From NCBI GenBank assembly GCA_004764695.1, contig SMSO01000014.1, forward strand, positions 6,810,029-6,874,028: DNA of 64,000 nucleotides. The letters are read 5' to 3'. Made by a program: the position numbers and the translations under genes. The notes beneath the pieces are model-generated. The model made no database searches and was not told the origin of the DNA. It saw only the letters and a program-made list of their open reading frames with translations. Positions 38,570-61,167 of the stretch are shown here, piece by piece. Origin of the DNA: Schizochytrium sp. TIO01. Taxonomy: Eukaryota; Sar; Bigyra; Thraustochytrida; Thraustochytriidae. Numbering within the stretch: position 1 is the stretch's first letter; the number at the start of each line of letters is the position of its first letter.

Positions 38570-39859
38570 ATGAGTCTTGCAGAGAGCAACAACAACAATA
38601 CTGAAGACGTGCAACAAGAAGACGGCTGGGTGTTGCGACTTGACCGCCAGGCAGTTGACCATGCTGCATTCGACTCTTGGTATCCTCTTTTCAGCAGAAC
38701 AAAGGGAGATAAAACATCGAAGCAGCACACGATTCGCTCTGTGATCTTACCCATGTCCGATGAATTTCTTGCATACCTTCAGCAAGATGGAGTTATCATG
38801 CCAAATGTCCCTGAAGGCGTTGACCTCGCTGTGGCAGATCCGCGATACGTTGTGGCAGCTCCCGAGGATACATACGACGCATTTGGAGATGTGGATTGGG
38901 AACAGGATGAGTCCGAAGACGAACTCGACGAGGCTGAAGCACCTTGCTTTAAAGACCTGGAAGCTACCTTACAGGAAACCCTCGACGAGCTCAAGGGAGA
39001 AGCCTTCGTTAAACTCCGTTGGACCAGTCCGCAGGACGCGCATTGGGTCTGTGGTGGGCTGCGTTGCTCCACCCCAGGTCATGTTTATCTGCTTCTAAAG
39101 AGCTCAGACTTTATCCAGCACGACCTGGAGCACGTATATGATAACTGCTGGGACACAACAAATCCTAACGTCACATCAACTGAAGGAAAGGCAGAGTCTG
39201 AAGATGATTCACCTTCGTTGGCCTCAACAAAACAAAACCCGTGCCTCGTGATGAGGCGCTGGAGTCATCTCAACCGGGCAATGGAGTTTCGATGCTTTAT
39301 TTATAATAATCAGCTCCTTGCTATCACGCAGCGCTATCCTCAAGACTATCATGCCTACTTGCAACCAGGTCAACCTATGCACGAAACTGTAGTGAGCTCA
39401 ATCATGTCATTTTTTGATGAGGCAGAGGTTCCAGACCGTTATCCCCACCCTCACTTTGTCATGGATGTTTATGTTGATCGGGAAGAACGCGTTTGGGTCC
39501 TTGACTTTGGTCCTCTTCCTACCTTTATCCCTGAAGTTGAAGTGTCAGAGTCCACAACTGATTACCATAGACTTATGCAGTGCTCTCAGCAGCTTGTTAG
39601 TGTGCCTCCGCATGAATTGCTGAGCTGGGCTGAGCTGCGGCGACTTATTTCTTTGGCTGAGAATGACAAGGAAACTGACCCGGACCCAGAGTTCTACGTT
39701 GTCAAGTCTCGTCAAGCTGCAGAAAGTACCCGTGATGTCAAGCGCTCACACTGTGTTCCTATTGAATTGGTTACAGGTGAACTTACACCTGAAATTTTCA
39801 AGCAAGCCCAGGAACAGCTTGATGCTATGAATAATCCAAAGTCTGAGGCCACACCATAG
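38570..39859 (+). CDS. CDC123: CDC123 family protein (eIF2 assembly chaperone)
   Basis: This is a 429-residue single-exon protein from ATG 38570, preceded by a CA/GA-rich leader. CDC123 is an ATP-grasp-fold chaperone that binds eIF2-gamma and promotes eIF2 assembly in the cytoplasm. Family landmarks occur in order: FDSWYPLF (34-41), an acidic segment (about 107-125), FVKLRWTSPQDAHWV (146-160), LLLKSSDFIQHDL (174-186), EFRCFIYNNQLLAITQR (239-255), FVMDVYV (296-302) and VWVLDFGPLPTF (308-319), the last holding the metal-binding Asp. Length is slightly above the human protein (336) because of acidic and C-terminal additions. It converges on the lipase maturation factor gene, with 301 bp between stops. 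Confidence 0.92.
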   Translation: MSLAESNNNNTEDVQQEDGWVLRLDRQAVDHAAFDSWYPLFSRTKGDKTSKQHTIRSVILPMSDEFLAYLQQDGVIMPNVPEGVDLAVADPRYVVAAPEDTYDAFGDVDWEQDESEDELDEAEAPCFKDLEATLQETLDELKGEAFVKLRWTSPQDAHWVCGGLRCSTPGHVYLLLKSSDFIQHDLEHVYDNCWDTTNPNVTSTEGKAESEDDSPSLASTKQNPCLVMRRWSHLNRAMEFRCFIYNNQLLAITQRYPQDYHAYLQPGQPMHETVVSSIMSFFDEAEVPDRYPHPHFVMDVYVDREERVWVLDFGPLPTFIPEVEVSESTTDYHRLMQCSQQLVSVPPHELLSWAELRRLISLAENDKETDPDPEFYVVKSRQAAESTRDVKRSHCVPIELVTGELTPEIFKQAQEQLDAMNNPKSEATP

Positions 39860-40160: not shown

Positions 40161-41885
40161 TCAGTCAATTAAGTCTGTGCTTCGCAAAAAGTCATACACT
40201 TGCTTTTGATCCAGCGAAAGAGGTGGTAAGTACGGTTCCTCAAACTCGCGAACCCACCATGCAGTTGAATTCCACTCGCGAGCAAATCTATAGTGATATT
40301 TATCCACTTTAATACGTTTCGGCGGCGCTTTCCCAGTGAATGGATTTTCAGCCAAAGCCTGAAAAGCCAATTCATCTCCTTCTAGTAATTTGACAATGTA
40401 GTGCACAAGCCAAGGATGATACTGAAAGGGCTGGAATCCAGCGAACCATAACGCCCAGTCTATACGAAAGTGATATGGTGCCAAAATACAAGGTCGCCTC
40501 TCAGTGTCGCCTGGTTTGCACTTGAACTGGTACTCTAGCCAGTCTTCGTCACCACTTTCTGAAGCACTGCCGAAGAGAATGACTTCGTGTCGTTCGCGAT
40601 TTACAGACCCAAAAGCTCCGTACGTGTTTACAATAGAAAAGGTATTGAAGCTCGTGTTCATTCGCTGGGACGGACTTAGCAAATTCATCACCACAGGAAC
40701 ACTCAAAAAACTGATCAAAAGAATCAGACAGACATGCAAACTTTGCCGCAAAGGTGAAGGTGCCAAAAATGCAGATCGCTTTTTAGATATCTTTGGGATG
40801 GAAGAAAGTATGGAAGCGCCACTTGCGGCTTTATAAAAGGAATTGACAACTAAACGCACAAAAACATGGATATCTGAGAAGAATTCATCATCAAAACAAA
40901 AGATAGCAGGCAGTATAGTCATCATATTCAAGAATCCATAATTTCCAGTAGCCTGAATCAAGAGCATTTCAGAAGCGACTGATACTGCTCCTAGCATGCG
41001 GACCTCCCGTGACAAAAGCATAGTCCATGGGACACACACTTGCACAATGTGATTAAAGGTTACTTCCATTATATGCCACTGCGCAGGAAACTGAGTGTGA
41101 AAAAACCAGCTCAATGGGTTAGGTACGCATGTTGTTTCATAAAAATAGTTCATGCACGAGAAATCACGCCAGCAGGAGTCTCCACGGAGTTTGATCAGAC
41201 CTGCACCAATATAAATCCGCATGAGCAACCAACGATAGAGCCAGACTACAGATTTGGGTGTCGCTAACGACGTCATATCAAGAGACATAAATGGGCAAAG
41301 GAAGATCGAAAGGAATCCAGTTTCTAGCAACTGAATCTCCCAACCAAAGCTGTACCAGCCTTGGCCAACGTTTGTAATACTTCCATATAGCACCCAAATC
41401 GCAGCCATAATGACCATGTTTGCACGTCCAAATAGAAGAGGTATTAAGGCCAGTCCCAACCCTGTCACCTCGCACCTCAATAGCCATTCATCAAAGGCAC
41501 CCTCTGGAGCAAACCACAAGACTGTAGGTGACGCAAGATAGAGCTCGTATGGCTCTAGAGGTTTCCCCTGACGGCTCTCAAGCTGCCCACGCAAACGGCG
41601 AAGGTGCCGTGGTCCAGGGGTCAACCCATTTGACCCAATCAGTAAGTCATTCTGTTCTAACGCCACCAGAAATGCCAGGACGTACATGAGGCCCATGGCT
41701 CGCAAGAACAGGTCCCGTGCAACGTTGTAAGTTGAGTCCTGAGGCTTCAAAGGTGGTTCAGACTGCAAGCTTTTGCTTGGCAAACCGTCCGCGCATTGTT
41801 GCAACTCTTCCTCAGCCTCCGTGGCAACCATGTCGAACTTTGCAGCAAGGCTTGGTGACTCAGGTGGCACAGGAGCTTTACCCAT
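40161..41885 (-). CDS. lipase maturation factor family membrane protein
   Basis: This is a 574-residue single-exon protein from ATG 41885. Lipase maturation factors are ER multi-pass membrane proteins that help fold and assemble secreted dimeric lipases. After a polar 50-residue N-terminus, the family pattern begins at YNVARDLFLRAMGLMYVLAFL (first membrane segment about 60-77). It continues through IGSNGLTPG, a run of further hydrophobic helices, GWYSFGWEIQLLETGFL, LLMRIYIGAGLIKLRGD-type and WRDFSCMNYFYETTCVPNPLSW. The C-terminal lumenal part has RIDWALWFAGF and ends with the family signature WWVREFEEPYLPPL. Size matches LMF1/LMF2 (about 570-700). Which paralogue it is cannot be told. Confidence 0.93.
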   Translation of the reverse strand: MGKAPVPPESPSLAAKFDMVATEAEEELQQCADGLPSKSLQSEPPLKPQDSTYNVARDLFLRAMGLMYVLAFLVALEQNDLLIGSNGLTPGPRHLRRLRGQLESRQGKPLEPYELYLASPTVLWFAPEGAFDEWLLRCEVTGLGLALIPLLFGRANMVIMAAIWVLYGSITNVGQGWYSFGWEIQLLETGFLSIFLCPFMSLDMTSLATPKSVVWLYRWLLMRIYIGAGLIKLRGDSCWRDFSCMNYFYETTCVPNPLSWFFHTQFPAQWHIMEVTFNHIVQVCVPWTMLLSREVRMLGAVSVASEMLLIQATGNYGFLNMMTILPAIFCFDDEFFSDIHVFVRLVVNSFYKAASGASILSSIPKISKKRSAFLAPSPLRQSLHVCLILLISFLSVPVVMNLLSPSQRMNTSFNTFSIVNTYGAFGSVNRERHEVILFGSASESGDEDWLEYQFKCKPGDTERRPCILAPYHFRIDWALWFAGFQPFQYHPWLVHYIVKLLEGDELAFQALAENPFTGKAPPKRIKVDKYHYRFAREWNSTAWWVREFEEPYLPPLSLDQKQVYDFLRSTDLID

Positions 41886-42570: not shown

Positions 42571-45447
42571 TCAACGAGAGAACGGTTCTTGCTGTGTCGG
42601 AGCAGAGATTTGAGCGCTAGTAGTAGCAGTTACACCTTCGTGATTAGAAGTCATATTAGATATAAACTGTGTGACATATCGCATCATTGCTGTTGGTACA
42701 TTATCTTGATCGTTCCCTACAGAAGAATGGCCACTGCTCAACCGAGAGCTCATTCGCTGGCTACTTCTCAAACTGCCACGACGTTGACCAGAGCTTCGTG
42801 TTGCACTACAGGAAGACAGACGACTACGTGCAAGCGAGGCTCTCCGAGGTGTTTCCGCAGTTGTTGGCTTCGTATTTTGCAACCTACGGACCAGTTTAGG
42901 ATAATCTTCTATCGACACGTTGCAATTAGCAAAATCACACCCAGTTCGCACCCATTGGGCACAGAAATCATTATAAGACCACACATCACTATCATCGGGT
43001 AACACAAGAATAGGGTCTGTGATAGGTTCTCCAAGGAGACTTAGATGCCCTTCCGGATCTTCATCGATGTCTTGCAGTGATTTGTCAGCAGGAAGTAGAT
43101 CCAGATAGGACCTTACTGATTCAAGGCGGTCCTGTCGCTGCCACTCTGGCCATGCCGCCAACCATTGCTTAAATGACTCCTCAGAAATAGCAAGTGCTTC
43201 CTTTTCGGCGTGCGCGATATCCTTGTGGTCGATCTTTATATAATTTGCAAAAATCATTGACTTTGATGACACGGGTAGATTCAGACGCTGTCGGAGTGCA
43301 ATTTCAAAGCCTAAATACACGCATACATCATCAATATCGCGGTTCAAGCTATTGATGTATTTTTCAACATGTTCATGCACAATGTTTAGACGCATAATGC
43401 CCATGCCGAGTTTCCGTAGCTTCTCCCGATCACCACGTGCGTGGGCGATCTCAACAACAATTTGCATCTGACCTAGAGCCCAGATTGGTTTATCAGCACA
43501 AGCATCAGTGGCATCGAGCATACGTATGATGATCTCTTCACGTGATACTGGGTCATTAATTACAAGCTCTAAGACTTCTTTGACACGCTCCTTGAGTCCA
43601 TCACGGTAATCTTCATTTTGAAACTCCTTTGAGCTTAGGAGCATGCTCAAAAACCGAAGAACGCCCCACACGTAAGCTTTGTCAATGTGCTCTTCAAGGT
43701 CAGTCGCCTGAACATGAAATTCGCGTGCCACCTCATAGAGTGTATTCAAACTGATCATCCCTCCGTCTGATGTGTAAGCTGCTCCGAGAAAAATCTGGAT
43801 ATTATCATTCTGTAAGTTGCGCAATGCATCTAGAGCGTCCCCAACTATACTTGTTTCTTGAATATTGACGACTACCTGAGTAGCTCGAGGAGCTTCAAAG
43901 GACTCAAGAGGAAGCTGCATAAGACTAATACACCCCGAAAAGTTCATCTCTTGACCACTGCAGCGCAAAGAGGAAGGAACATAGTTGAGTGAAGTACATC
44001 CCTGAACAGAGAGAGTACCCTTCACCACAAGATTCTCAGGCAGCTCTTGGAGCATGACACAATCGTGCATGAAGAGGTCACCCATAATCACAAGATTATC
44101 GGGAAGTCGTTTGAGCTGTGAGCATCCCATTAGTAAAACGTCTCCATTGACAAGAAGCAACGACTCAGGAAAGTTTTCAAAGCGTTCACAACGTGTAAGC
44201 ACGAGAGCGCCAATGGTCGCCATTCGGGCTGGAAGGCTCGTAAGCCATTCATCTCCTGCACAATTTAGTTCACCAGCAATCTCCAAGTCGTCTGGCAGAG
44301 CGTAAGGCTCTGACATTTTCACACGAAGGATCAAATCCCCGTCAATCTTCATACGTTTCCCAAACGACAAAACCTGGACTCCAGCAATGACTGCATTTCC
44401 AGCAACGGAAAGCTCATTTGGTAACGAAACCATGCATGGTTCTTCAGCATTGCTTTTACCAATAAGAGAGAGGTTCCGTTTCGCCGTAAGCAAGTCCGGG
44501 ATGCGATTCGGTGAAGCGGAGTTAGCAACAAGAATAGCGTCACAATGAAGCTCTAGTCGAGGCAAATCGTCTGGGATTTCGAGTAGAGCGTAGTTTTGGG
44601 GCATGGTATATACACGAATGGCCTCGGTTTTAGTGTTCCAGGACAGAACTGTTTTCTTTGAAAGTTCTTTATAGGCCTGCGAGTCTTGTGGCATCGCTTC
44701 CAGAGCATTTTGAATCACCTTATGATGTTTATTGCACATGCTGCGTGCTTGAAGTGTTGTATAGAGTTTTGCATTGTGAGCCAACCTTGCCGTATAAAGA
44801 GGTCCATTTATCACGCCTAAACCTAAAGCAGTTATGCAGTAGAATGGCGATAACAGCAAATTTTCAAGAACCTTACAGAGACTGGCAAGGCAATGCATAG
44901 GCGGACTTGTGAAGGCTATTTCTTTTTTACAACAGCAACGCCAATTCACTATGCAGGCTTTGCTAGGATCACCGTTTCCATTGTCAAGAAAGCAAATGCA
45001 CACGAATGGGAGCGACAAGATGCCCATTATAAGCAGCTCTGATATCAGCATAGATACCTCAATGCCATATACAAAGCACATTTTCACCGAACATTTAGAT
45101 GAGTTCTCCAAGTATTCCCGAAAACAGCATTGTGGAGTTAGGTAGAGTGCCCTCGAAGGTATGCCTGCAGGGTTATTGCTACAACCCCAGGGTATCAAGT
45201 CTGCTGTGTTGCACGTGCAGCATGCACACCTACAGCACGTCTCAGAATTTTCGCTTAGTGAAAAAGGCTCCTCACCATTGATTATCCTCTTCGTGTTGGC
45301 AATATACAGAGAGCTCAGCCCGTCTGCAGGAGAGGCCAGCCAAGTTTCTGCCCACTCGTCCTCTTGTCTTGAATATATGGCCATGAGCAAACTCCGTAAT
45401 CTTTCCTCCAAGTCTGGCTCATAGCTATACTCACCATCGCTCTCCAT
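42571..45447 (-). CDS. membrane-anchored LRR protein with NEL-type E3 ubiquitin ligase-like domain and U-box-like tail
   Basis: This is a 958-residue single-exon protein from ATG 45447. Order: acidic N-terminus; Cys clusters (71-79, 107-108, 171-173); two hydrophobic segments (about 131-155 and 194-215), probably membrane helices; and about ten 'LPxxLxxxGxLxxxxCxxL' repeats (about 285-520) like bacterial LRRs. From about 565-775 the sequence follows the NEL domain of IpaH/SspH/SlrP ligases. It has Cys650 in DACADKP (the C-x-D catalytic motif), then ALGQMQIVVEIAHARGD, LRKLGMGIMRL, DDVCVYLGFEIALRQRLNLP, YIKIDHKDIAHAEKEAL and WLAAWPEWQ. NEL proteins use the Cys to form a ubiquitin thioester. Residues about 807-858 resemble a U-box (ITDPILVLP, SYNDFCAQWVRTG). 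The tail is Ser/Arg-rich. Codon use matches neighbours. The NEL call is by recognised pattern; function is inferred. Confidence 0.75.
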   Translation of the reverse strand: MESDGEYSYEPDLEERLRSLLMAIYSRQEDEWAETWLASPADGLSSLYIANTKRIINGEEPFSLSENSETCCRCACCTCNTADLIPWGCSNNPAGIPSRALYLTPQCCFREYLENSSKCSVKMCFVYGIEVSMLISELLIMGILSLPFVCICFLDNGNGDPSKACIVNWRCCCKKEIAFTSPPMHCLASLCKVLENLLLSPFYCITALGLGVINGPLYTARLAHNAKLYTTLQARSMCNKHHKVIQNALEAMPQDSQAYKELSKKTVLSWNTKTEAIRVYTMPQNYALLEIPDDLPRLELHCDAILVANSASPNRIPDLLTAKRNLSLIGKSNAEEPCMVSLPNELSVAGNAVIAGVQVLSFGKRMKIDGDLILRVKMSEPYALPDDLEIAGELNCAGDEWLTSLPARMATIGALVLTRCERFENFPESLLLVNGDVLLMGCSQLKRLPDNLVIMGDLFMHDCVMLQELPENLVVKGTLSVQGCTSLNYVPSSLRCSGQEMNFSGCISLMQLPLESFEAPRATQVVVNIQETSIVGDALDALRNLQNDNIQIFLGAAYTSDGGMISLNTLYEVAREFHVQATDLEEHIDKAYVWGVLRFLSMLLSSKEFQNEDYRDGLKERVKEVLELVINDPVSREEIIIRMLDATDACADKPIWALGQMQIVVEIAHARGDREKLRKLGMGIMRLNIVHEHVEKYINSLNRDIDDVCVYLGFEIALRQRLNLPVSSKSMIFANYIKIDHKDIAHAEKEALAISEESFKQWLAAWPEWQRQDRLESVRSYLDLLPADKSLQDIDEDPEGHLSLLGEPITDPILVLPDDSDVWSYNDFCAQWVRTGCDFANCNVSIEDYPKLVRRLQNTKPTTAETPRRASLARSRLSSCSATRSSGQRRGSLRSSQRMSSRLSSGHSSVGNDQDNVPTAMMRYVTQFISNMTSNHEGVTATTSAQISAPTQQEPFSR

Positions 45448-53700: not shown

Positions 53701-55626
53701 ATGCCCTCCGGAGGCGTTGGTCTGGTGTGCCTGGAGCCTGTTCCCAGCGACATCGAGATCTCCCAGACAGCCGTGCAGCCCGAGCACATCAGCGTCATTG
53801 CCAAGGATGCTGGCATTCTCGAGGAGGAGCTGGACCTCCACGGCCCGCACATGGGCAATGTGAGCCTCAAGGTTCTCGAGCGCCTCAAGGATCGCAAGGA
53901 CGGTAACTACGTCCTTGTCACCGGCATCAACCCGACCTCTCTCGGCGAAGGCAAGAGTACCACCACCATTGGACTCTCGCAGGCGCTCGGTGCCCACCTC
54001 GACAAGAAGGTCTTCACCAACATTCGCGTGCCGAGTGCAGGTCCTACCTTCGGTGTCAAGGGTGGTGCCAGTGGTGGTGGATACGCACAGACCATCCCCA
54101 TGGAGCTCTTCAACATCAACGTGCCCAACATGCAAATCTCCCCTGTGATGGCTGCTAACAACCTCATCGCCGCCGCCATCGATTCCCGTATGTTCCACGA
54201 GCAGACGCAGTCCGACGAGGCTCTCTTCCGCAGATTGTGCCCTGACCACGGTGAAGTTCGCGTCTTTGCCAAGCCCATGCTCCGCCGCCTCGAGAAGCTT
54301 GGAATCACCAAGACCAACCCCTCGGACCTCACCCCCGAGGAGGTCTCCCGCTTTGTCAGACTCGACATCGACCCTGAGTCTATCACTTGGAAGCGCGTTG
54401 TGGACACCTGCGACAGACACCTTCGTGGTATCACCATTGGACAGGCCCCCTCAGAAAAGAAGGGAGTTCCTCGCGAAACCGGATTCGACATCGCCGTCGC
54501 CTCTGAGTGCATGGCAATTCTTGCATTGGCTACCTCCGTGCACGACCTCAGGGAGAGGCTTGGACGCATTGTCGTTGCCTACTCGAAGGCAGGAGAGCCC
54601 GTTACCACTGAGGACCTCGGAGTTGCAGGAGCGGCGGCCGTTCTCATGCTTGATGCCATCAAGCCCACTCTCATGCAGACGCTCGAGAAGACCCCCGTGC
54701 TTGTGCACGCAGGACCGTTCGCCAACATCGCCCACGGAAACAGCTCGCTTATTGCTGATCAGATCGCACTCAAGCTCGTCGGAGAGGAAGGATTCGTTCT
54801 CACCGAGGCTGGCTTCGGAGCTGATATTGGAGCAGAGAAGTTCTTCAACATCAAGTGCAGAGCCAGCGGACTCAAGCCGGACTGTGCGGTCATTGTCGCC
54901 ACCATCCGTGCTCTTAAGATGCACGGAGGCGGCCCTCAGGTAACCCCCGGAAAGCCCCTCGACAAGGCTTACAAGGAGGAGAACCTTGAGCTTCTCGCCA
55001 AGGGTGTTGGCAACCTGCAGCACCACATTCGCAACATGAACAAGTTCGGAGTCACTACCGTCTGCTGCATCAACAAGTTCGCCACTGATACCGAGGCCGA
55101 GATTGAGCTTGTGCGCAAGGCTGCCATCGAGGCAGGAGCGTATGATGCTGTCATGGCAAACCACTGGGCCCAGGGTGGTGCTGGAGCAGTTGAACTCGGA
55201 GAGGCCGTTGTCAAGGCCTGCGCAGACTCCCGGGCTGGCAAGGCAGGACCTGGTTTCAAGTTCCTTTACCCACTCGAGATGAGCCTTCGCGACAAGATCC
55301 AGCGCATTGCCGTAGAGATCTATGGTGCCAACGGAGTCGAGTTCACGGACCTTGCCTCCCAGCAGCTCGAGCGCTACCAGAACCTCGGATTTGGTAAGCT
55401 TCCCATCTGTGTTGCTAAGACCCACCTCTCGCTCTCTGCGGACCCGTCCAAGCGCGGTGTCCCTACCGACTTCACTGTCGTCGTGCGCGAGGCCCGTGCC
55501 AGCATCGGTGCTGGTCTTATCCTTGCTATGCTCGGAGACATCATGACCATCCCGGGTCTCCCCACTCTCCCTGGTTTCTACAACGTCGACGTCACTGACG
55601 ATGGCCAGATTAAGGGCCTCTTCTAA
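53701..55626 (+). CDS. formate-tetrahydrofolate ligase, monofunctional
   Basis: This is a 641-residue single-exon protein from ATG 53701 in good context (CCAAGATGC). It makes 10-formyl-THF from formate, THF and ATP, feeding purine and methionine synthesis. Landmarks are VPSDIEISQ (14-22), the P-loop region [18 protein letters not shown] (75-92), [71 protein letters not shown] and the C-terminal [15 protein letters not shown]. Length fits the ligase alone (family about 555-640). The dehydrogenase/cyclohydrolase domain of the trifunctional C1-THF synthase is absent, as in plants and bacteria. No organelle targeting peptide is evident, so it is likely cytosolic. Codons are very strongly C/G-ending, a sign of high expression. 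It converges on the patatin-family gene. Confidence 0.97.
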
Positions 55627-56430: not shown

Positions 56431-59400
56431 TTACTCTATTTCATGTCTATAAGCCCAAGAGCCTGTTCGTCGTAACGTAAGCCCGTTGCCGCGAAGTCCT
56501 GAAATCTTCTTTTCCTTGCGCGGCTGACGCTTGCTACGATCAACTCGATCGATGGCTCTCCAAGAAATGCAGCGAAACTTGGAAGCATGATTGCGACGGA
56601 GATCTTCTACCCAAGCTTGCACACGAGGCTGAGCGTACTTGTACGCTCTCTCCTGGATTTCTGCACTTCGACTAAACTCTAATGTGCTCACGTCGTCAAC
56701 AGGAGGCTGCAAATAGAGGTCAATGTAATCAATCAAAGTTGGGTTCCCGGAAGGCTCCAGGCCACCATAACGACGAGAGTACGCAGATCCGAGCGAACCT
56801 TTCTTATCAACTTTGCCTGTACTGCCTTGCTTCACACTACTAATAAACGCTAGCTGAGTCTGAATGTCACTTGATGTCGGAATAGCGGGTGTCTCCACAA
56901 AAGGGTTCAACCAGCGCAAGAGATAACCCCATCCAGATAATTCAGCACCATAATCAGCACCTGCAAACTGCCACGAACCTTGCACATCAACAGCAATTAC
57001 CGTTGCACGAGGACCAAGATACCTGCGCATTATATCGGCAGGAAGATTGTTCGTGTAACCACCATCACATAAGTAGTGCACCACCTTTTTCGTTTTTGCT
57101 TTCTTTGATTTTTTACCTTGAATGCCAGAGTTCTCTCCAAATTCAGTACTGCTAGTAGCGGCACCAGATGGGGGGCTTTCAATAGTCCATTCACTGGCAT
57201 TCTTCCCACCTTGTGTGGAGGATAAATCCCCGGTGTGGCGACGGCTCCGGAGCCCTGACTTGCCCACAGGAACTGATTCGCGAGGTTGTTGAAGTTCGCC
57301 TCCATCATTCGGAGGCAAGAGAGATTTTCCAGTTGAATCATTATCATCGGCCTTGCTTTTCTCCTCGGCATGGTCTCCCTGGGCATCATAGTCTTCAGCA
57401 TCACAATTGACTTCCTCATCCTCGAGAATCTCTTCCTCCAAAACATCGCAAAGTGGGGGCATGAAATTGACCAATGTCATAGACGCACGCACATACCGCC
57501 AAAGTCGCCCATTACGATGAGCAATCTCTTCGGAATCAGTCAAATCTGTCGTCATACAAAAGTATGGCAGCCATAAGTCCTCGATACATGTGGTCCCGAA
57601 GAATTCGATAATGCCTCGATTGAAGTTGCCGCCAGTGAACCAAGACACTACAGGAAGCGTCATATCAGAAATAAGTTCCCACATTGAAGACATGCTTGTG
57701 GTAAACTTTGTCAGTAGCTTATGCATTAGAAGAGTATCGCACTTCATCGAATAAACAGCACCTAGGAAAGAACCAATACTTGTACCCGCTACAAAATCAA
57801 CCGGGATACCCATTTCCTCAAGGCATCGAAGCACAGAAACATGCGACATTCCACGCGCACCACCACCACCTAATACAATGCCCACAGACTCGCCAATCAA
57901 CCACCGAGAAAGCCGACGGAAATCACTCTTAAAGTGCTCCACATCAAAATATCCTGTTCGCCCATAGGCATCGGTTCGATTAGGATGGAACCGTATGTGA
58001 TGATGATGGTGAATATTTCCACGATTAATGATCCATTCACGTGTGTTAGAGGGAAGCTCCGACATATCTTTGCGCCCAGACTCGATATGGAGCAGCACAA
58101 GCTCCTTGCGTGCATTAGTGTTCACAGAAGCGAGCTTGCGTTCCAAAGGTGTAATGTCTGCACCATCAGCTGCATTGGCCACGTACATGACTAAGTCAGC
58201 TTGGGCGATGCAAAGTTTTGACCACCAGGAGGGCTCAGGCTCAGACCACGGATCCACTACATAGAATACAATATCACTGGTATCCTCAGCTTCACTAAGC
58301 CATGTAAGAAGAATAAGTTGTTCGAGAGGAGAAAACGGAGCTGAAATCACATTACCTACTCCAAGCTTGCGCTCTTCGGCCATGCGATCAACAATATCAG
58401 AGGTGAGTGTCTCCACTGACGTACCCATGGTTTCTAACGTTTTCGATAGTGTGCGAAGAAACAAATCGATGGGCGCGGAAGGACTCGCAGGAACGATAGC
58501 CACAACGTTTGTTGTCGCGCCTTGTGTTCCTTGAGATGCGCTGCTCGGACCTTGCATAAGCGATCGACTCATAGTTCGACCCATGTGGAAAACAACCTCC
58601 GGAAATTTCGACATAATTGCGAGCATAGCAACCTTGGGTAGCACAGCAAGCTGGGTACTACGCAGGGCGGTCACGCTTTCAATCATAGGTTCCTCCGTAA
58701 GAAAAGAGATTTCTCCTATCAGAGCGCCACGCCCATATTCACGCTCTTGGCTTTCAGGTGTCGTACGCCGAGATGAAGCCTTGGATCCTCGCATACGACC
58801 ATGAAGGACTACATACAGATTCTCGCAGGTTTGGCCTTCCTTGACCAGTACCTCGCCAGAACCAAGGTGACGCCATGTTGTCGTGAGATCGATCATGCGG
58901 ATCACATCAAAAAGATTCTGGACAAGGCCTTCCGCTTTATGAACAATGATTTTAGGGTATTTGTCAATTAGATCGTAGTAGTCTGACTGAGCAATGCGGG
59001 CCAAAACGGTCTCCTTATGTGTTGCTGAGGCCCGAACCCATACAGCCTCAGCTGTCTGAAGGCTATTACGACCAAGGTACCAATCATTCCAAGCTCCAGT
59101 AAGTAGGGAAAGGTGTCCAAAGGTCTCTCCGCGGCAAAAGCAGTGTTCCAATCGGCTCTTTGCTTCGTCTCCACGACGACCAACCATGAGCTCAAGGCCA
59201 CCCTTAATCACAACGTACATTGCGGCTTCGTTTGAGACATCCAACACCTCCTTACCAGGCTTGAGTTTGACGATGTGTACAACTGTCTTTTGTGGGTTGA
59301 TATTACGATGGGACTGACGACTGCCGGGACGGCTAGGGAGCTCCAAAGAAGGAACTCCGCGTCCTCGCTCATGGCCTGCCGGTAGTCCAGTTGACATCCC

Positions 59401-61167
59401 TGACGGAGAACGAGGAGCAACAGGAGAAGAACCCGTAGAACTGATAGAATTTGATCTCATGAGAGATAAGGCAGAGTCATCCGTACCAAGAGAAAATCTA
59501 CCCATCGGCAAGTCTAAGCTGGACATGGTTTTACTAACCATAGGGTGTTCCGCAACAGAGTCACTACCAGAAGTGTGTGCATCATCTTCATCACCCACAT
59601 TCCGAATATCGCTATCATCCTCCTCATCCTCAGAATCCTCGGTATCCCAATCTGCCAAACTTGTTGCAGAGTAGAGCTCCTGGCGCGAAATTCCGAGTTC
59701 TCGACTCACAAGATTGAGAACTTCGTCATCTGATACAGTTTCCTCTCCCCCAAGACGTTTTTTCAGCTCAGTCTTTGGGATGACAATACGACCCGTAAGC
59801 CTGAACATGGTCATAAAAGTGATGCGATTGAGACGAATCATAATACGCAGAAGCATTTCCTCGCGCAAACCAGTGAATTCTGCAAAAATTGGGCCAAGGC
59901 ATTGCTCATAGTCGATGGAGAGTACGGTTGTATCTTCCTTTGCGGATACAGTAGCAATATTCTTTAGAGGACGTTGTGTGATAACTGAAAGTAGTTCAGC
60001 AAGGCCTGTTGCGTTTTCGTCAGGTCCAAGTTGGACCGTATCTTCTGCCCCAAAAGCTCCTGGGCTTCTGGATGGCCGAACGTAATCTTCGTCGTCATCA
60101 TCCTCAGCTTCAATAACACCTGCCGCGGCACCTTGCAACGACTCTACTCCGGATAGTGTCGAAGACAAACTACTGTCTCTTTTATGGCTGGCACGCGTAG
60201 CCTCTTGTTCTTCAGGAGTAGCAGGTAAAGCTTTTCCAGACCCAGGTAGCATGGAGTTAAGGTCAACCTGCATGGCGCCTGAGATGACAATAATAAATTG
60301 AGCCTTTTTCGGCTTGGAGTTTGCTTCGAAGAGGGTATCACCAGCAACAAGCTCCACGCGCTTTGCTCTGGAGGAAATGGCACGGAGGATTTGCTCTGGC
60401 AGCCATGAAAAGATCTCCGTTTTACGAAGGCATTTGATAATGTCGGCGTCTTCGTCCATCTGGAATTGCTCGTCTAGCATCTGTCCAACCTGTCGCTGCG
60501 TGAGCGAGGACATAATACCGGTCTGCACAGGCGCCTTGTCTGCTCCATCTGCCCCGGGTACAGGTCTATCGGCGTAGATTGACCTGAGTCCATCGCCATC
60601 GCGCGTTGTAGATTTGACCCAGCGGTACCTGCGCCTCTGTCGAAATGTGTCCACAGCAGCTCTGATAGAGAATCTGTCCCTAATCTCACGGTATTTGCGC
60701 TTTGCCTGTGCCATTCTGCCTTCACGTTGCAACATCCTGGCTACCTGAGAAGCACTGTCATCCCCCAAAATCGCAGAACCCAAGTTTTCCAGAGTTGTCA
60801 TCGACGCAGATCTGTCCAGACTACCCAAGAGGGGTATTTTGCTGCTCGAGCTTCCCTCCTCACCTTTAAATCCGCTAAGGTTGCTGTCTTTATTGCTGTT
60901 GTTGATACGTCTGCTGCGACTGAGTTCGTTGGACCGAAGAAGAAACTTGATGAGAACCGCCATGACTACCAGCAGCGCCACAGTGGACACCAAGACTCCA
61001 AATCCGAACCCGGCATCATCACGTTTATTAGCAAGGCTCCCAGCTAATGACCACGCTGGAGATGGGGCCGCGGAGGACTGTGGATCCCTGCCTTGAATCC
61101 CGCCAAGGCCTGCTTCAAGGCCATCCTCAGGCAGAACCACACTAAGAAGTCCAAGCAGCTCCGCCAT
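56431..61167 (-). CDS. neuropathy target esterase (PNPLA6/7)-like lysophospholipase with cyclic-nucleotide-binding domains
   Basis: This is a 1578-residue single-exon protein from ATG 61167. PNPLA6/7 enzymes deacylate phosphatidylcholine and lysophosphatidylcholine at the ER membrane. A membrane helix spans about 54-76. Cyclic-nucleotide-binding-like domains lie at about 245-420 (split by an acidic insert), 625-745 and 748-865; the third has GEVLVKEGQTCENLYVVLHG and GALIGEISFL. Residues about 935-1090 match the linker that precedes the patatin domain. The patatin domain starts at VGIVLGGGGARG (1095-1106). It has GTSIG with nucleophile Ser1130, and DGGYTNNLP with Asp1368, so the dyad is complete. 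About 115 acidic, low-complexity residues (about 1245-1360) are inserted just before the Asp motif, where the animal enzyme has only a few. A basic tail ends the protein. Confidence 0.95.
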   Translation of the reverse strand: MAELLGLLSVVLPEDGLEAGLGGIQGRDPQSSAAPSPAWSLAGSLANKRDDAGFGFGVLVSTVALLVVMAVLIKFLLRSNELSRSRRINNSNKDSNLSGFKGEEGSSSSKIPLLGSLDRSASMTTLENLGSAILGDDSASQVARMLQREGRMAQAKRKYREIRDRFSIRAAVDTFRQRRRYRWVKSTTRDGDGLRSIYADRPVPGADGADKAPVQTGIMSSLTQRQVGQMLDEQFQMDEDADIIKCLRKTEIFSWLPEQILRAISSRAKRVELVAGDTLFEANSKPKKAQFIIVISGAMQVDLNSMLPGSGKALPATPEEQEATRASHKRDSSLSSTLSGVESLQGAAAGVIEAEDDDDEDYVRPSRSPGAFGAEDTVQLGPDENATGLAELLSVITQRPLKNIATVSAKEDTTVLSIDYEQCLGPIFAEFTGLREEMLLRIMIRLNRITFMTMFRLTGRIVIPKTELKKRLGGEETVSDDEVLNLVSRELGISRQELYSATSLADWDTEDSEDEEDDSDIRNVGDEDDAHTSGSDSVAEHPMVSKTMSSLDLPMGRFSLGTDDSALSLMRSNSISSTGSSPVAPRSPSGMSTGLPAGHERGRGVPSLELPSRPGSRQSHRNINPQKTVVHIVKLKPGKEVLDVSNEAAMYVVIKGGLELMVGRRGDEAKSRLEHCFCRGETFGHLSLLTGAWNDWYLGRNSLQTAEAVWVRASATHKETVLARIAQSDYYDLIDKYPKIIVHKAEGLVQNLFDVIRMIDLTTTWRHLGSGEVLVKEGQTCENLYVVLHGRMRGSKASSRRTTPESQEREYGRGALIGEISFLTEEPMIESVTALRSTQLAVLPKVAMLAIMSKFPEVVFHMGRTMSRSLMQGPSSASQGTQGATTNVVAIVPASPSAPIDLFLRTLSKTLETMGTSVETLTSDIVDRMAEERKLGVGNVISAPFSPLEQLILLTWLSEAEDTSDIVFYVVDPWSEPEPSWWSKLCIAQADLVMYVANAADGADITPLERKLASVNTNARKELVLLHIESGRKDMSELPSNTREWIINRGNIHHHHHIRFHPNRTDAYGRTGYFDVEHFKSDFRRLSRWLIGESVGIVLGGGGARGMSHVSVLRCLEEMGIPVDFVAGTSIGSFLGAVYSMKCDTLLMHKLLTKFTTSMSSMWELISDMTLPVVSWFTGGNFNRGIIEFFGTTCIEDLWLPYFCMTTDLTDSEEIAHRNGRLWRYVRASMTLVNFMPPLCDVLEEEILEDEEVNCDAEDYDAQGDHAEEKSKADDNDSTGKSLLPPNDGGELQQPRESVPVGKSGLRSRRHTGDLSSTQGGKNASEWTIESPPSGAATSSTEFGENSGIQGKKSKKAKTKKVVHYLCDGGYTNNLPADIMRRYLGPRATVIAVDVQGSWQFAGADYGAELSGWGYLLRWLNPFVETPAIPTSSDIQTQLAFISSVKQGSTGKVDKKGSLGSAYSRRYGGLEPSGNPTLIDYIDLYLQPPVDDVSTLEFSRSAEIQERAYKYAQPRVQAWVEDLRRNHASKFRCISWRAIDRVDRSKRQPRKEKKISGLRGNGLTLRRTGSWAYRHEIE

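Follow-up and report, generated by a model that had tools for sequence, protein, structure and literature searches.

Does a thraustochytrid genome encode its own E3 ubiquitin ligases of the NEL type, and how would such an enzyme take up ubiquitin? The question is raised by a gene in a 64,000-nucleotide stretch of Schizochytrium sp. TIO01 (contig SMSO01000014.1, positions 6,810,029 to 6,874,028 of the forward strand; hereafter "the window"). The gene occupies window positions 42571..45447 on the minus strand, to which all features of the protein given below also belong. It is a single open frame of 958 amino acids from ATG to stop, identified by the Pfam NEL profile, its self match and its paralogues. 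As read from sequence and predicted structure, the layout of its family is a variable N-terminus followed by leucine-rich repeats (LRRs), the NEL domain and a U-box-like module. The family is probably one of endogenous E3 ligases that act through a cysteine thioester, with the E2 perhaps engaged via the module.

The NEL domain and its catalytic site

A preliminary description, made from the sequence alone, had recognized a NEL domain in an LRR protein. This was borne out by hmmscan, in which PF14496 matched residues 596-771 (43135..43662) with 97.3 bits against a cut-off of 24. The C-x-D site that had been placed at Cys650 and Asp652 was found there (codons 43498..43500 and 43492..43494, respectively). 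The proposed fold was also upheld: residues 12-222 of the predicted model align with SspH1 404-623, giving the all-helical catalytic fold to the NEL catalytic subdomain (residues 567-777; 43117..43749).

Conservation was assessed in 45 eukaryotic rows (17 from this genome and 28 from the databases, with 13 duplicates or fragments and the locus L025 left out) and in 84 bacterial rows. Cys650 and Asp652 were kept in all rows of both sets, and Asp706 (codon 43330..43332) was kept in 44 of the 45 eukaryotic and all 84 bacterial rows. Positions kept in at least 90% of the rows on both sides were occupied by Leu, Phe, Trp, one Gly, Cys650, Asp652 and Asp706; the last is the sole polar side chain besides the C-x-D pair to be retained at this level across both clades. 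Every one of the 143 sequences hit by the NEL profile (18 own, 41 database and 84 bacterial) contains the C-x-D motif; about a dozen of the database proteins in this set are near-copies of own loci, and L119, a degenerate paralogue devoid of the motif, does not belong to it.

As in a typical NEL ligase, LRRs precede the NEL domain (repeat pattern at 415-497, plus PDB matches). The repeat region comprises residues from about 401 to 520 (43888..44247). Four units of 21-22 residues each, starting at 415, 437, 458 and 479, were located by a pattern search, and residues 330-515 were matched by LRR-type PDB chains; the Pfam LRR models gave no match to the protein at E<=1. Further upstream, the hydrophobic segment(s) at residues 126-152 lie in a Cys-rich region (44992..45072; Kyte-Doolittle, 19-residue windows, peak 2.31) and constitute a possible membrane anchor. 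By hydropathy, N-terminal hydrophobic segments were likewise seen in two close paralogues (L012, L014), as well as in the relatives P0002 (Hondaea) and P0005. The very start of the protein had no hydrophobic stretch by hydropathy, no signal-peptide program having been used.

When the protein was compared by region with Hondaea P0002, the identities were 27% for the N-terminus, 30% for the Cys-rich/putative transmembrane region, 35% for residues 231-400, 43% for the LRRs, 44% for the linker, 74% for the NEL domain, 38% for residues 776-796, 66% for the U-box-like module and 42% for the tail. To judge from these values, the two putative enzyme parts, the NEL domain and the module, are the most conserved, and the recognition parts drift. 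The tail itself (residues 866-958; 42574..42852) is rich in Ser and Arg and includes a short terminal peptide resembling the ends of the paralogues P0003 and P0004.

The module that follows the NEL subdomain

Residues 797-865 (42853..43059; sequence core 802-857) form a module that profile comparison of sequences and predicted structure mark as U-box-like. It follows the NEL subdomain at the place where SspH1 carries a helical thumb (623-697) that binds ubiquitin-loaded E2 (E2~Ub). The alignment of the predicted model with SspH1 ends at 623, where the thumb starts, and a helical thumb was not found. Predicted alone, the module took a U-box fold, with the Prp19 U-box as its best structural match (the Prp19 U-box dimer entry). 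Profile-profile comparisons, carried out with hhalign, detected a similarity between the module and U-boxes encoded in the genome itself. Of the pieces cut from the alignment, two overlapping the module start scored 16.3 and 19.5, and the 14 other pieces scored 7.5-13.2.

A profile of the module was matched at E<=0.01 in 17 of the 18 own NEL frames and in 40 of the 41 database proteins, most of these positives matching by construction, because 40 of these very modules had gone into the profile. Matches were also obtained in sequences outside the profile (L015, L022, P0022, P0025, P0026 and P0040). A match was lacking in L025, whose frame is broken, and in P0014, a fragment. None of the 84 bacterial NEL loci was matched by the module profile (best E 0.46). 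A single-sequence module query returned 17 places in the genome, all of them NEL loci; that of L025 was included, and that of L020 was missed.

Some observations weigh against its being a plain U-box. The Pfam U-box profile PF04564 matched none of the 17 own and none of the 40 module sequences, and its nine matches in the genome include no NEL locus. The loop-2 Pro was present in 1 of 40 modules, with D-[LF]-x-N there instead. A plain hmmsearch with the module profile barely separated the genome's true U-boxes from noise; the link between module and U-box was seen only by profile-profile comparison and predicted structure. The loop-1 position was L, F, V, I or M in all 40 modules. We take the loop-1 aliphatic residue and the loop-2 Pro to be E2-facing surface positions of canonical U-boxes. 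An ordinary Pfam U-box was rejected by profile and retained as a predicted fold; because the Pfam model was silent and the loop-2 Pro rare, the module was named "U-box-like", and E2 binding by it was kept as a hypothesis. With this module, the protein goes beyond a bacterial NEL that was simply transplanted.

The family, its genomic setting and its origin

PF14496 matched 18 loci on nine contigs of the 64.06-Mb, 37-contig assembly (19 rows, two of which represent the single broken locus L025) and none in 14 control genomes. Frames were open through the NEL domain and the module in 17 of the 18, and C-x-D was present in all 18. Together with the conservation of the Cys/Asp pair, these loci strengthen the earlier suggestion of an endogenous ubiquitin ligase class, the ligase activity being inferred. 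In L025 (G000:C31:2872556-2873285), the frame is broken by stops. Three of the NEL genes (L012, L014 and L023) lie within about 18 kb (G000:C24:1949499-1967103). The 23,648-aa open frame of L013 (G000:C3:214587) was doubted; its translation contains X, i.e. unread bases, and it is probably an artefact.

A protein query added one degenerate locus with LRRs, L119 (G000:C34:3562881-3563375, minus strand), which keeps a Cys, has the C-x-D-K stretch deleted and lacks both the W..W end and a U-box-like module. From its sequence, L119 appears to be a natural loss of catalytic stretch and module together. Relatives of the LRR region without a NEL match at the same place were seen at L120 (G000:C30:5977762-5978904) and at G000:C13:867792-868217; judged in the same way, LRRs of this type also occur alone in the genome.

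Searches of protein databases returned 11, 4 and 34 hits with overlaps, amounting to 41 distinct proteins. Among relatives with a named source, the one nearest to the window protein belongs to the thraustochytrid Hondaea fermentalgiana (45.6% identity over 877 aa), in keeping with a thraustochytrid host. Named sources were limited to Hondaea (eight proteins) and Durusdinium trenchii (one, P0020), a coral-symbiont alga. P0020 is likely a thraustochytrid contamination of the algal assembly, or else a transfer, because it lies on an 11-kb contig and its armadillo (Arm)-NEL layout is common to a Hondaea protein. P0005, P0019 (these with SspH1-type titles) and P0020, all NEL proteins of eukaryote type, come from contigs of 6 to 11 kb. 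For the paralogue L020, a protein with an MMETSP transcript showed 98.9% identity, and therefore a close relative transcribes at least this paralogue. The fronts of the relatives vary: SPRY parts were found in P0035 and P0039, Arm parts in P0024 and P0025, and LRR matches in several; we take the SPRY and Arm parts to be of intracellular type. In the public gene models of Hondaea P0002 and P0040, NEL genes are fused with tubulin and LSm domains, and P0002 has in its interior a peptide similar to that with which members of the family end. Both thus appear to be run-on models, whose wrong names conceal the family. Other database relatives carry the names of plant disease-resistance proteins.

The preliminary description had the gene flanked by ordinary eukaryotic genes, and such neighbors were identified with Pfam: D123 (38570-39859), the lipase maturation factor LMF1 (40161-41885), formate-tetrahydrofolate ligase (FTHFS; 53701-55626) and an NTE-type patatin phospholipase (NTE; 56431-61167). 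The codon usage of the NEL gene correlated with that of LMF1 at 0.87, NTE at 0.86 and D123 at 0.78, with that of a zinc-finger gene at 0.59, and with that of the GC-rich FTHFS gene at 0.13. The FTHFS gene has a GC content at third codon positions of 0.70 and a codon usage very unlike that of its neighbors.

In a tree of 67 rows, 45 eukaryotic rows were split from 22 bacterial ones by a branch with 100/100 support; the tree is unrooted and two-sided and gives no donor and no direction of transfer, including that of the ancient transfer and domestication suggested in the preliminary description. Its bacterial side covers only rhizobia and Serratia symbiotica, with 22 of their 84 loci used. Two conserved eukaryotic NEL patterns were matched by 67 stretches in 84,980 bacterial and archaeal genomes, with no confirmed relative; in viral contigs, the eukaryotic NEL patterns were matched by 14 stretches, again with no confirmed relative. 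Because the motifs behind these scans are of eukaryote type, an absence of intermediates from bacteria does not follow from them. Among plasmids there were 170 matching records, all at less than 60% identity (24-28% among the 60 matches listed), and among phages a single short record, at 29% identity.

Readings of the protein and comparison with known systems

The best-supported scheme is the following. The LRRs, or an added SPRY or armadillo part in paralogues, would pick the substrate. E2~Ub would then be delivered, possibly through the U-box-like module, which would do the E2 recruitment of the thumb. Cys650 would take the ubiquitin as a thioester and pass it to a substrate lysine with the help of Asp652; in work on IpaH, the Asp of C-x-D reportedly assists the transfer. 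The enzyme would thus be a two-step, RBR/HECT-like one in which a NEL active site is combined with a eukaryotic E2-docking fold. In the window gene and its closest paralogues, the hydrophobic N-terminal segment may hold the protein on a membrane. A more specific version, to which we accord slightly less than an even chance, is that thraustochytrids possess an endogenous LRR-NEL-U-box class in which the thumb was exchanged for a U-box (or the reverse), the NEL cysteine receives its ubiquitin from the U-box, and an RBR-like relay was built independently; some members would perhaps be LRR surveillance receptors that ubiquitylate what they bind.

The most serious competitor, a possible but clearly weaker account, retains the NEL ligase and denies E2 binding to the module, which would dimerize (as the Prp19 U-box does) or bind substrate or ubiquitin, the catalytic subdomain alone reading E2~Ub. 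The closest U-box structure being a dimer entry speaks for this account, as does the absence of the canonical loop-2 Pro from 39 of 40 modules; the position of the module where the thumb of SspH1 would be, its conservation near that of the NEL domain and the aliphatic or Phe residue at loop 1 in every module speak against it. The U-box-like fold has a different bearing if the protein is a RING-type ligase in which direct transfer follows from activation of E2~Ub by the module, with the NEL fold a mere scaffold. Such a scaffold would not need Cys650 and Asp652, which are invariant in the 45 non-duplicate eukaryotic rows, and we consider this improbable. It is equally hard to credit that the protein is a catalytically dead LRR receptor in which the NEL domain and U-box are remnants. 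Degenerate NELs do exist in the genome (L119, and L025 with its broken frame), but these are exceptions among loci with open frames and an intact C-x-D, and the NEL domain is the part best conserved between genera.

An endogenous LRR-NEL-U-box-like ligase also has to be set against a protist effector, secreted or injected and directed at another organism in parallel to the bacterial use. We think this unlikely, given that the very start of the window protein shows no hydrophobic stretch and that some relatives carry SPRY or Arm parts, presumably intracellular. In its favor, NEL proteins are effectors in bacteria, and thraustochytrids include parasites, according to the accessible part of PMC11642839. 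Bacterial contamination or mis-assembly is hardly conceivable: no supporting point was found, the contig is 7.46 Mb long, and the hypothesis is excluded by the 18 loci on nine contigs, the pattern scan of the 84,980 bacterial and archaeal genomes and a codon usage like that of two neighbors. The paralogues and the Hondaea relatives further sustain the earlier view of a eukaryotic gene.

RBR and HECT ligases combine a separate E2-docking part with a catalytic cysteine that forms a ubiquitin thioester. By analogy, the same logic would hold for the protist protein, although its catalytic fold is unrelated. In bacterial NEL ligases, the NEL cysteine carries out the thioester transfer and the LRRs choose the substrate (PMC12506513 and PMC4133400, as far as their accessible text goes). 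With these enzymes (Shigella IpaH, Salmonella SspH1, SspH2 and SlrP, rhizobial NopM) the family shares the predicted catalytic fold, the C-x-D motif and the LRRs before the NEL domain. It differs in its identity to them (about 24-29% among the matches listed), in having mostly K instead of R after C-x-D, and in carrying a U-box-like module where the helical E2~Ub thumb was not found. The bacterial effector class is Gram-negative and type III-delivered, whereas the protist family is a chromosomal, eukaryotic, multi-contig multigene family. U-box proteins (Prp19, Ufd2/UBE4A/UBE4B) and their bacterial mimics (LubX, AvrPtoB) share the predicted fold of residues 797-865; the module departs from them in its silence toward the Pfam U-box, its rare loop-2 Pro and its occurrence in the genome at NEL loci (17 of 17 places returned by one module query). 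The XopL-type effector also joins LRRs to a C-terminal E3 domain, but its XL-box is without a cysteine and is not a NEL domain, according to the accessible text of PMC4133400.

A NEL-like domain has been claimed earlier for a eukaryote, in NLR genes of green algae; the claim rests on homology in the LRR superfamily region, and the accessible part of that paper mentions no U-box-like module (PMC7145615). That claim aside, neither a eukaryotic NEL ligase family nor a NEL-U-box fusion was found reported in the literature searched, partly accessible as it was and with most subscription journals and bioRxiv outside it; "thraustochytrid" with "NEL domain" gave no paper there, the accessible text of two further papers found with PF14496 describes no NEL ligase of eukaryotes, and "NEL domain" is absent from the main text of a thraustochytrid proteome paper (PMC12221091). 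A 2022 review states, in its accessible part, that NEL ligases are specific to bacteria, and the protist family contradicts this as far as sequence goes; with a suggestion made in a 2014 review it agrees to the same extent. The evolutionary source of the IpaH/SspH effectors, i.e. whether the NEL domain was taken from protists or given by bacteria, becomes testable. If the module recruits an E2, the relay ligase with two steps would have been invented independently in this family, and nature would have run an experiment in exchanging the part of an E3 that docks the E2.
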